A DNA stretch of 20,881 nucleotides from the IMG/VR virus record IMGVR_UViG_3300048996_000038, positions 1-20,881 of that record; one strand, written 5' to 3'. The notes under the pieces are model-generated. The model saw only the letters and a program-made list of their open reading frames with translations, had not been told where the DNA came from and made no database searches. Source of the stretch: a virus. Position 1 is the stretch's first letter, and each line of letters begins with the position of its first letter. This document shows positions 7,777 through 13,072 of this stretch, piece after piece. The position numbers were made by a program, and so were the translations under genes.

Positions 7777-8832
7777 ATGCCAGCCATCACGCCGAGCTTC
7801 ATGTTCGATCTGGAATCGAACATGCGAGTGATCACACAGAACGAGTACCAGCGTCTTACGACGCAACTTTGGTGGACGCAGATCGCCAAACAGACCACGA
7901 CGACGTCGAAGAAAGAGCGACTGATCTGGCTGCTCGACACGGCGCGCATCGAGCGCACGGGCCAAGGCGGCAATCTCGAATTCGAAGACATCGTCAGCAC
8001 GACTGCCGAGATCACGGTCGAGAACGCAGCCGCGGGCTTGAAGCTCAAGAAGGAAGCGTTCGAGGACGTCGACGGCAACGGCATCGACCTCGCCGCGCAT
8101 TGGTCTCGGCAGATCGGCAGCTACTCGGCATATTGGCCACAGCGCTGCGTCGCCGAAGCCATCCGCGCCAATCCGATCACGTATGACGGCAAGACCTTCT
8201 TCGCGAAGGATCACCCGCTCAATCCCTACAGCCCGCAGGCGGGCACGTTCGCAAACGTCTTCACGGGCGCGGCTGCGGCGGCGAATCCGGCGCTGAACAT
8301 CCCCGCATATCCGGGCGCGCTGCCGATCGATGACAGCGTTACGGTCGACGTCGCGCTGACGAATCTGACGCGCGCAATTGGCTACGCGACGACGATGAAA
8401 CTCCCGAACGGAAAGGACCCGCGCTTTCTCAAGTTTGCGTACCTGTTCGTTCCGCCGCGTATGCTGCCGCGCGCGCAGCAACTCACGAACGCGAAGTTCA
8501 TCGCACAAGCCGCAGCGGGCGGCGGCGTCGCAGTCGGCGACGTCGAAGCCATCGTCAGCAATCTCGGCGTCGGTCAGCCGGTCCAACTGTTGGAGCTTGG
8601 CGAAGCCTTCGGCGGCAGCGACACAGACTATTACCTGGGAATGGAAGACCTGACGACGAGCGAGCTTGGCGCTTTCGTGTACGTTCAGCGCGAGCCGTTC
8701 AGCGTGCTGTTCTACGGTCCGCAGTCGGACGCACAGCTCGCGCGCATCCGCGAGTTCCAGTGGATGACCGAAGGTCGTAACAGCGTTCAGCCGGGTCACC
8801 CTTACCTGCTTTTCAAGGGCTCGAAGACCTAG
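7777..8832 (+). CDS. Major capsid protein (Mu gpT-like)
   Basis: This 351-residue shell protein would assemble around the scaffold. Features matching the Mu-like gpT head subunit family are the N-terminal MFDLESNMRVI, then ERLIWLLDTARIERT, the FEDVDGNGIDLAAHWSRQI segment, and ITYDGKTFFAKDHPLNPYS, close to the YDG-x2-FF-x3-HP pattern I remember for this family. The C-terminus ends with a PFSVLFYGPQ beta segment. Length is slightly above that of Mu gpT. The ATG is preceded by AAAAGGA at 7759-7765, about eleven bases upstream. No delta domain precedes the fold, so the protease would mainly remove the scaffold. A tRNA-like gene follows in the 105-base gap downstream. Confidence 0.9.
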   Translation: MPAITPSFMFDLESNMRVITQNEYQRLTTQLWWTQIAKQTTTTSKKERLIWLLDTARIERTGQGGNLEFEDIVSTTAEITVENAAAGLKLKKEAFEDVDGNGIDLAAHWSRQIGSYSAYWPQRCVAEAIRANPITYDGKTFFAKDHPLNPYSPQAGTFANVFTGAAAAANPALNIPAYPGALPIDDSVTVDVALTNLTRAIGYATTMKLPNGKDPRFLKFAYLFVPPRMLPRAQQLTNAKFIAQAAAGGGVAVGDVEAIVSNLGVGQPVQLLELGEAFGGSDTDYYLGMEDLTTSELGAFVYVQREPFSVLFYGPQSDAQLARIREFQWMTEGRNSVQPGHPYLLFKGSKT

Positions 8833-8843
8833 CAGCCAATGGC

Positions 8844-8915
8844 GGCGCGGTAGGGAAACGGTCAACCCGTCGGTCTCATGCTCCGAAGGTCTCGGTTCGA
8901 ATCCGAGCCGCGCAA
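8844..8915 (+). tRNA. tRNA-like gene, anticodon CAU (Met type)
   Basis: The gene folds as a cloverleaf. The acceptor pairs 8845-8850 with 8908-8913. The D stem GGG/CCC (8853-8855, 8866-8868) carries a GG in its loop. The anticodon stem pairs 8870-8873 with 8883-8886 around a CTCATGC loop with anticodon CAT at 8877-8879. The variable loop has four bases. The T arm is CTCGG-TTCGAAT-CCGAG (8891-8907). Conserved T8, A14, A21, G18G19 and an A15-T48 pair are all in place. Oddities are a G-A mismatch at position 1-72, a T-T mismatch closing the anticodon stem, G instead of A at position 37, and no encoded CCA (CCC follows A73). It could be elongator or initiator Met, or Ile-CAU; G37 is unusual for all three. 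It fills the gap between capsid and connector genes. Confidence 0.68.
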
Positions 8916-8937
8916 CCCGCATTCCAGGTAACAAGTC

Positions 8938-9432
8938 ATGGCGGCATACCTGACAGTCGAAGAATTCAAAATGCTGTCACTCATGCCAGCAAGCTTCGTC
9001 GACGCGGTCGAAGCCGGGCATCCCGGCTTCGTCGCGCTGCGCTTGGAGCTGAAGTCGGCGTACATCGACTCGCGTTTGCGCAAGCGGTACGCCGCACCGT
9101 TCCAGCTACCCGCGCCCATCGTCGTGCGCGGATGGCTCGCCGCGCTCGTCACGGTCGACGTCGAGACGAAGCGCGGCATCGATCCAGAGTCGGGCAACAT
9201 CGACGAATACCGCACCGAAGCGAAGACCGCGCTCGACGAAATCAAGGAAGCCGCCGACGCGGAAACAGGTCTCTTTGATCTGCCACTGCGCAGCGACGGA
9301 TCGAGCGCGAGCGGCGTCTCGCTCGGCGGACCGCGCACGTACACGGAAGCAAGCCCGTACGTCTTCGCTGACGTGCAACGGGAGACCGCACGCGAAGAAG
9401 ACTTCATCCGCGAAGGCAACACGCGACGCTGA
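8938..9432 (+). CDS. Head-tail connector protein (DUF1320 / Mu gp36-like)
   Basis: This 164-residue protein has a helical N-terminal half. YLTVEEFKMLSLMP at the start, KSAYIDSRLRKRYAAPF in the middle and VRGWLAALVTVDVETKRG after it follow the gp36/DUF1320 layout, in which a helical adaptor docks under the portal. The C-terminal part is polar and probably flexible. An AGGTAA sequence at about 8926-8931 is a fair ribosome site for ATG 8938. It is the first protein gene after the capsid and tRNA, as gp36 follows the capsid gene region in Mu-like phages. The family call rests on pattern and position only. Confidence 0.78.
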   Translation: MAAYLTVEEFKMLSLMPASFVDAVEAGHPGFVALRLELKSAYIDSRLRKRYAAPFQLPAPIVVRGWLAALVTVDVETKRGIDPESGNIDEYRTEAKTALDEIKEAADAETGLFDLPLRSDGSSASGVSLGGPRTYTEASPYVFADVQRETAREEDFIREGNTRR

Positions 9433-11940: not shown

Positions 11941-12429
11941 ATGTCGGACGCGATCAGAGTCAACGGCAACCTGCTGAGCTGGGGATCACTGTCGATGAAA
12001 ATCGACGGCGAGCCCTACTTCGGCTTCACCTCGATTCAGTGGGCGGAAAAAAGAGAGCGCGTGCTGGCATGGGGCATGGGAAGACATCATGCTCCGATCG
12101 GCCGGTCGGCGGGCAAGTACACGCCCGACCCTGTCAAGCTCGTCGGCTGGAACCATGCGATCAAGGCGGCGCGCCTCGCGCTCGCGAAGCGAGGCAGCGG
12201 CTCCTACGGCGACGTCGAGTTTCAGATCGTGTTGCAGGGCGTCGAAGCCGAAAGCGACAACGCGTTCACGTGCGTATTCGATCGCTGCGTCTGGACTGGC
12301 AACAGCAATTCCTGCGAAGAGTCGGCTGACCCGCTCAAGGAAGAGATCGAGGTATCGACGATGTCGATCACGCGCGACGACCTCGCGCTGTATGACACGC
12401 GCGGCAGCGCGGGCGGGATCTCGCTATGA
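11941..12429 (+). CDS. Tail tube protein
   Basis: This 162-residue beta-rich protein follows the sheath, the standard order in contractile tails. It begins with IRVNGNLLSWGSLSMKIDGE and contains FTSIQWAEKRERVLAWGMG, a strand pattern expected of tube proteins that stack in hexameric rings inside the sheath. The segment VEFQIVLQGVEAESDNAFTC followed by VFDRCVW adds further strands. TAAGGAAGG just before ATG, which includes the sheath stop, is the best Shine-Dalgarno in the window. The stop overlaps the chaperone start as ATGA (12426-12429). Confidence 0.85.
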   Translation: MSDAIRVNGNLLSWGSLSMKIDGEPYFGFTSIQWAEKRERVLAWGMGRHHAPIGRSAGKYTPDPVKLVGWNHAIKAARLALAKRGSGSYGDVEFQIVLQGVEAESDNAFTCVFDRCVWTGNSNSCEESADPLKEEIEVSTMSITRDDLALYDTRGSAGGISL

Positions 12430-12884
12430 CCGCGGCCGTGCGACCCGTCGACGAGCGCGACGAGCGACTTGCCGAGCTGCGCGCCAAGCGAGCCGAGCTG
12501 CAGCGTCAACGCGAAGCCCGCGAAGCGCGGTACGCCGCCGACGACGAGGTCGAAGCCGAAGAGCGTGGGCTACGCGACGAGCAAGCGATCGCCGACGCCG
12601 AAGAGCGCATCGGGCGCGTCGGCAAGATGATTGCGACCATCGACACGGATCTCGGCGTGGTCATCTTGAAGCGCGCGCATCAAGCCACGATGCGTCGCTT
12701 CATGGAGCGCGCCGAAGATCTAAAGACCGAAGACCTGATCAAGCTCGTGCGCCCGTCGCTCGTGTACCCGAGCGGTCCCGAGTTCGATGTCATGCTCGAC
12801 GCACAGCCGATGGTGCTGCATCGGTGCTCTAAAGCGCTCGGCGTGCTCGCCGGTCTGCGCGTGCGAGAAACCGCGGAAAAATAG
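12426..12884 (+). CDS. Tail assembly chaperone, short form (G-like)
   Basis: This 152-residue, strongly charged helical protein lies between tube and tape measure, where tail assembly chaperones are found. Residues 10-75 look like a long coiled coil (AELRAKRAELQRQREAREAR). The second half (TEDLIKLVRPSLVYPSG, VLHRCSKALGVLAGL) is compact. It ends GCG GAA AAA TAG at 12873-12884, a slippery-looking site for -1 frameshifting. Chaperones coat the tape measure before the tube polymerises around it (family knowledge). ATG 12426 overlaps the tube stop. Confidence 0.78.
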   Translation: MTAAVRPVDERDERLAELRAKRAELQRQREAREARYAADDEVEAEERGLRDEQAIADAEERIGRVGKMIATIDTDLGVVILKRAHQATMRRFMERAEDLKTEDLIKLVRPSLVYPSGPEFDVMLDAQPMVLHRCSKALGVLAGLRVRETAEK

Positions 12885-13072
12885 CCGAGCTTCGGGCCAA
12901 GCAACGCGAAGACGTATCGGTCGCAGCCGACTGTTTGCTCGCGGCGCTTGGGACGAAGCTCGACGAAGAAGACCTCGTCAGCACCGCGCGCGCTTACGTC
13001 GGCGCGATCGCGATCCTGGAAGCCATGACCGAGCTACGCAACATCCGCAAAGCGTTGACCACATCGAGCTGA
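12426..13072 (+). CDS. Tail assembly chaperone, frameshifted long form (GT-like)
   Basis: If ribosomes slip back one base on GGAAAAA (12875-12881), translation passes the TAG at 12882 and continues with ATA GCC GAG to TGA at 13070-13072. This adds 63 residues, giving about 215. The added part is helical and clearly protein-like (SVAADCLLAALGTKLDEEDL, ILEAMTELRNIRKAL). It has no early start codon of its own: the only ATG in that frame is at 13025, near its end. It ends three bases before the tape measure ATG. Two chaperone forms made by programmed frameshift at this spot are known in many tailed phages. That it happens here is inference. Confidence 0.65.
12875..12881 (+). other. Probable -1 programmed frameshift site
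   Basis: GGAAAAA, read GAA AAA in the zero frame, contains five A residues directly before the TAG stop. In a -1 slip the A-site AAA re-pairs fully with AAA, while the P-site GAA must re-pair with GGA and so mismatches at one position. This is not a perfect X-XXY-YYZ heptamer. No strong downstream hairpin was worked out by hand. Confidence 0.55.

Follow-up and report, generated by a model that had tools for sequence, protein, structure and literature searches.

What kind of tRNA is encoded by a lone CAU tRNA gene that sits between the capsid and connector genes of a phage, and what could it do there? The question is raised by a 20,881-base IMG/VR virus record, analysed here over its whole length (the window). 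Pfam and phrog matches identify in it a Mu-like head/tail module with genes for a terminase, a Mu-type portal, an S49 protease, a decoration protein, a gpT-type capsid, a weak Gp36 match, and a tail sheath. The relatives of the portal are distant (Meiothermus, Thermus, and Myxococcus phages, 26-29%), and relatives of the capsid were found neither in cellular genome contigs nor among cultured phages. The features on which the argument depends are as follows.

7777 to 8832, plus strand: major capsid gene of the Mu gpT type (Pfam PF10124, E = 2.3e-10; phrog_371, major head protein)
8844 to 8915, plus strand: initiator-type tRNA-CAU gene, from G1 (8844) to the discriminator A73 (8915) (ARAGORN; Rfam RF00005; initiator-like score +7.9)
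8844, plus strand: G1 of the G1·A72 mismatch, with A72 at 8914 (sequence; PMC5143459 Table 2)
8853 to 8868, plus strand: D arm with G10-C25, G11-C24, G12-C23, and an A13·A22 mismatch (Rfam; classifier; PMC5143459 Table 3)
8870 to 8886, plus strand: anticodon arm with U27-A43, C28-G42, G29-C41, G30-C40, and U31·U39 (sequence; Rfam)
8877 to 8879, plus strand: anticodon, within the loop C32 U33 C34 A35 U36 G37 C38 (sequence)
8880 to 8882, plus strand: G37, C38, and U39, where the E. coli initiator has A37, A38, and C39 (comparison with E. coli metZ)
8916 to 8918, plus strand: CCC, 3' of the discriminator (sequence)
8938 to 9432, plus strand: Gp36-like gene (Pfam PF07030, E = 0.0047, below the cut-off; assigned by position and by an N-terminus similar to that in relatives)

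A tRNA gene in the capsid-connector gap

Positions 8844-8915 are a real tRNA gene. ARAGORN calls a single tRNA in the whole window, tRNA-Met(cat) at 8844-8917, and Rfam RF00005 matches 8844-8915 at 55.8 bits (gathering cut-off 29; E = 8.5e-10) over model positions 1-71 of 71, so that both programs concur with a sequence-only reading of the window, which had placed a CAU tRNA here between the capsid and connector genes. When the whole window was dinucleotide-shuffled 300 times, ARAGORN found four tRNAs, none of them CAU. The minimum free energy structure of the naked RNA (-27.6 kcal/mol) is not the cloverleaf (-24.2 kcal/mol); folding energy is therefore uninformative for the cloverleaf, and it is the covariance model that supports it.

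The gene lies in the 105-nt gap that separates the capsid gene (stop at 8832) from the gp36-like gene (start at 8938). It begins 11 nt after the capsid stop and is followed by a 22-nt leader, within which AGGT lies at 8926-8929. No private promoter or terminator for the tRNA was recognised on the plus strand between 7200 and 9500. The peculiarities listed by the sequence-only reading, namely G37 (8880), a T-T opposition at 31-39 (8874/8882), a G-A opposition at 1-72, and the missing CCA, are all present. As the gene lacks the last A of CCA, a host CCA-adding enzyme would be needed. The remaining features are G2-C71, C3-G70, A73, and a four-base variable loop.

Initiator marks in a non-canonical tRNA

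With its CAU anticodon, the molecule could be an initiator, an elongator tRNA-Met, or a tRNA-Ile2 (lysidine). A published tabulation of 9,917 bacterial CAU tRNA genes, including 2,762 Met and 2,717 kIle (Ile-CAU) genes, lists G·A at 1-72 in seven initiators and G:C at 11-24 in three, and neither of them in any Met or kIle gene (PMC5143459). The window tRNA has both G1·A72 and G11:C24, which are rare and each limited to initiators among these 9,917 genes. Its 1-72 pair is not stable, and its 11-24 pair is of the R11:Y24 type of initiators (A:U in nearly all of them), whereas elongator tRNA-Met combines C11:G24 with a paired 1-72 and tRNA-Ile2 combines C11:G24 with a stable 1-72. G2-C71, C3-G70, and A73 are also in place; the determinants of formylation are an open 1-72 pair, G2:C71, C3:G70, and 11:24 (PMC7949028).

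The anticodon stem departs from the rule. Among the three consecutive G-C pairs of initiators (29-41, 30-40, and 31-39), the first two are G-C here and the third is U·U. Just four combinations at 29-31/39-41 are tabulated for bacterial initiators, all with G at 31, and GGU/UCC of the window is not one of them; CCA is encoded in 74.7% of these initiator genes (PMC5143459). A 3GC mutant initiator is still able to initiate under some conditions (PMC7949028). Because U31·U39 fails the strict 3GC rule, we do not file the window tRNA as a canonical tRNA-fMet.

A naive Bayes classifier gave a further assessment. Its training set, taken from the matches listed, comprised 187 distinct viral CAU tRNAs whose loop is CUCAUAA or CUCAUAC, labelled as strong (G-C at 1-72) or weak (any other 1-72), and the score was blind to both 1-72 and the loop. 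In leave-one-out analysis of these listed matches, 107/132 weak and 50/55 strong tRNAs were placed correctly. The window tRNA scored +7.9, on the initiator-like side, mainly through G11-C24 (11 weak, 0 strong) and G12-C23 (79 weak, 2 strong, again among the matches listed). Judged by its bases, the window tRNA is marked as an initiator at either end of the molecule but is not a canonical one. Methionine initiation, one of the roles offered by the sequence-only reading, is the one that the data favour, and the bases point to the initiator class more specifically than that reading had seen.

Compared with bacterial tRNA-fMet of the E. coli metZ/metY type, to which it is 73.6% identical (E. coli fMet), the window tRNA has in common the CAU anticodon, A73, an open 1-72, G2-C71, C3-G70, R11:Y24, G29-C41, and G30-C40. 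It differs in having G1·A72 instead of C1·A72, G11:C24 instead of A11:U24, U31·U39 instead of G31-C39, and the loop CUCAUGC instead of CUCAUAA, as well as in its four-base variable loop and unencoded CCA.

A viral class with a rewritten anticodon loop

The loop region, GGTCTCATGCTCCGAAGG, has no second exact copy in IMG/VR and no match in plasmids. A complete IMG/VR scan with the pattern CTCATGC, 12-13 bases, and GGTTCGANTCC returned 77 stretches; strict filtering for a cloverleaf left 43 distinct sequences. A second, separate IMG/VR scan (A57 in the T loop) added 20 cloverleaves, which brings the viral CAU tRNAs with G37-C38 to 63 distinct sequences. At 1-72, the first 43 have a mismatch in 35, A-U in seven, U-G in one, and G-C in none; the further 20 have a mismatch in 15, A-U in five, and G-C in none. 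The 63 are not phylogenetically independent, as they form 15 clusters at 80% identity (the largest with 28 members), and G-C at 1-72 is found in 0/63 of them vs 39/121 (32%) CUCAUAA tRNAs among the matches listed (Fisher, 7e-9). Likewise, a 1-72 mismatch is present in 35/43 of the first-scan tRNAs but in 37/1,154 non-CAU tRNAs of the fetched viral loci.

Other initiator positions are also conserved in the first-scan set: G2-C71 with C3-G70 in 42/43, A73 in 40/43, and G30-C40 in 40/43. All three anticodon-stem G-C pairs are present in 8/43, and no other member of the viral G37-C38 class has U31·U39. These tRNAs tend to stand alone, being the sole tRNA of the fetched partial loci in 36/43 cases, vs 8/39 for CUCAUAA tRNAs with a strong 1-72 among the matches listed. 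Their neighbours include portal genes of two unrelated types and scaffold, tape-measure, methyltransferase, and ParB-like genes. A position in the head operon is therefore recurrent but no rule, since members also lie beside methyltransferase and ParB-like genes.

The CUCAUGC loop is almost absent from cellular genomes. The same pattern yielded only ten cloverleaves in the genome contigs of 84,980 cellular species; nine have a weak 1-72 and the tenth, from an archaeal MAG, does not; four have long stretches of DNA in common with the viral loci. One lone initiator-like tRNA with G37-C38 is carried by the cultured [Pseudomonas] boreopolis JCM 13306 (L252, 6954-7029), shortly upstream of an ORF resembling phage lysozymes, and offers a possible experimental system. 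In a related group of phage loci (L032, L033, L077, and L083), and in a Planctomycetes MAG (L281), a tRNA with G1·A72 and G37-C38 lies about 200 nt upstream of a portal gene; the MAG suggests planctomycete hosts for this phage group.

The gap in capsid relatives

The capsid has relatives in 24 viral loci (55-66% identity). None of these 24 carries a tRNA, and the window tRNA is likewise missing from a further locus, L005. The tRNA was therefore either gained in the lineage of the window or lost in all relatives, and acquisition in the lineage of the window phage belongs to what we regard as the best reading. The sequence-only reading had made its proposal depend in part on covariance support in relatives. 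Locally this support is lacking (0/24), whereas outside the capsid group it is provided by the structurally conserved viral class described above.

The gap between the capsid gene and gp36 varies in length among relatives, and in some it is an unstructured 3 to 25 nt. A strong hairpin is present in the gap of L012, L015, L020, L021, and L022 (z -2.5 to -5.5), and in L020, L021, and L022 its stem includes the start codon of the next gene. The latter three have inverted repeats after the capsid stop, at 11024-11085 in L020 (17 bp, perfect), 8272-8345 in L021, and 8401-8471 in L022; by enclosing the gp36-like start, these could couple or throttle translation of the connector. The hairpins of L015 (after 11032, z -5.1) and L012 (after 7947, z -3.0) lack a T run.

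Proposed role and alternatives

Known toxins target initiator tRNA, a limiting factor for all protein synthesis. In the window tRNA, the changed bases 37, 38, 39, and 31 flank the cut point of VapC, which we take to be 38/39. The loop change therefore falls on or beside a position where a known nuclease cleaves. In tRNA-fMet, VapC toxins from several bacteria cleave the junction of anticodon stem and loop (PMC8522696), loop mutations have been proposed as a means by which phage tRNAs escape anticodon nucleases (PMC10264068), and phages of VapC-bearing Shigella generally avoid tRNA-fMet (PMC10264068). It is plausible, as a hypothesis drawn from the bases of the loop, that the window tRNA evades tRNA-fMet nucleases such as VapC. 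The nuclease-evading tRNAs already reported resemble it in having loop changes at or beside a host nuclease cut site; however, they come from phages of mycobacteria and enterobacteria (PMC10264068), whereas the tRNA changed here is of the initiator type. A viral initiator with an altered loop would supply the case that is missing there.

We consider it fairly probable that the window encodes a phage initiator-type tRNA that is transcribed in the late operon, processed, and used to start phage proteins, and that survives the loss of the host initiator. The tRNA would be transcribed with the late head operon, in keeping with the lack of a promoter-like site of its own, and would be excised from the late transcript by host RNase P and 3' tRNA nucleases, with CCA added by the host. 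MetRS would charge it, recognising CAU, A73, G2-C71, and C3-G70, and formylation is proposed because the 1-72 pair is open. Late in infection, phage proteins would then be started with the phage tRNA. As the loop and its closing pair (G37, C38, and U31·U39) are altered beside the VapC cut, the likeliest benefit would be a lasting supply of initiator when that of the host is depleted or cleaved, the phage molecule presumably being resistant to the nuclease. The points against this reading are that U31·U39 falls outside the tabulated combinations, that CCA is unencoded, and that no closer relative has the tRNA. A more general version, which we put forward only tentatively, is that in many unrelated phages a usually solitary initiator tRNA has a rewritten loop (CUCAUGC and related forms) that host toxins or defence nucleases aimed at tRNA-fMet cannot cut, while the open 1-72 and G30-C40 preserve its initiator role; here, the site in the head operon would make the supply rise with late expression.

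The same points against could mean that the gene is a relic, that is, an initiator-type tRNA recently picked up, nonfunctional or dispensable, and drifting. Since U31·U39 is untabulated in bacterial initiators and unique within the viral class, the window copy may indeed be decaying, and the A13·A22 mismatch, CCC in place of CCA, and the lack of the tRNA in all 24 capsid relatives fit such a history. We nevertheless think it unlikely, as pairing is complete in the acceptor (2-7), D (10-12), and T stems despite only 73.6% identity to E. coli fMet, 11-24 has changed from A:U to G:C relative to E. coli with pairing kept, and the loop is common to 63 other viral tRNAs. The sequence-only reading had also suggested an RNA processing site. 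If the tRNA were mainly a processing or structural element that parts the capsid from the connector message and so produces an excess of capsid, with any role in translation secondary, its place between high-copy and low-copy head genes at spacings of 11 and 22 nt would be explained, and the gap hairpins of five relatives, three of them enclosing the next start codon, could be its counterparts. However, other relatives manage with unstructured gaps of 3 to 25 nt, such an element has no need for initiator-specific bases at 1-72, 11-24, 29-41, and 30-40, and tRNAs of the same class adjoin the unrelated genes listed above. We hold it to be quite improbable as the main function, although a processing-site role is possible alongside others, with which it is compatible.

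Decoding during elongation is a very improbable role. The CAU anticodon, A73, and the label Met given by ARAGORN would suit an elongator tRNA-Met or a tRNA-Ile2 (lysidine) that reads AUG or AUA, and the ATA codons to which the sequence-only reading pointed, at 2160-2162 in the terminase frame and near 12881, do exist. However, G1·A72 and G11:C24 are found in 0/2,762 Met and 0/2,717 kIle genes, the classifier sides with an initiator, and the 6,043 internal codons of the window include nine AUA and 96 internal AUG; AUA decoding in particular is unlikely on these counts. The least credible alternative, to which we give a negligible chance, is that G37-C38 pairs with C(-1) and G(-2) of the phage's own messages and so lengthens the stretch recognised at the start codon. 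The geometry is permissive, and C stands at -1 in 4/7 SD-preceded AUG starts of the window. However, at 171 SD-preceded AUG starts in 43 tRNA-bearing loci, C(-1) amounts to 20% and G(-2) to 16%, whereas C(-1) reaches 58% in capsid relatives without the tRNA; with no bias at AUG starts, this candidate was dropped.

Relation to known phage tRNAs

A phage initiator tRNA as such is already known from phage T5. Its tRNAfM (CAU; AY543070), annotated as an initiator, is likewise phage-borne and has a weak 1-72 and a weakened third anticodon-stem pair; however, it lies in a large tRNA gene cluster and has the loop CUCAUAA, whereas the window tRNA stands alone within the head operon and its loop is CUCAUGC. 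The nearest sequences to the window tRNA are tRNA-Met genes of KVP40-like Vibrio phages (76% and 75%); among annotated matches, Vibrio phages reach 77% over 65 nt and the tRNA-Met of Xanthomonas phage RiverRider 80% over 45 nt. These tRNAs have U1-A72 or C1·A72 and are initiator-like though labelled only 'tRNA-Met'; they differ from the window tRNA in their CUCAUAA loop and in being sited among other tRNA genes. Two of the KVP40-like loci, L106 (1500-1576) and L107 (1499-1572), read as U1-A72 and R11-Y24, and their acceptor stem seems to contain a bulged A.

In the literature that we searched, whose coverage was incomplete, we found no description of a mostly solitary viral class of initiator-type tRNAs with rewritten positions 37-38, and phage tRNAs are treated there almost entirely as elongators. 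The class is easily overlooked because annotation programs label its genes only 'tRNA-Met'. A mostly solitary, loop-altered class opens a direct question: do phages bring their own start tRNA to survive an attack on that of the host?

Two minor observations concern translation in this phage group. The preference for C at -1 of SD-preceded AUG starts (about 58%) extends over the window and L003-L023 (12 loci) and is independent of the tRNA. In addition, AAAAATA is found within 12870-12890, at the end of the ORF at 12426-12884, and is compatible with a tail-chaperone frameshift.
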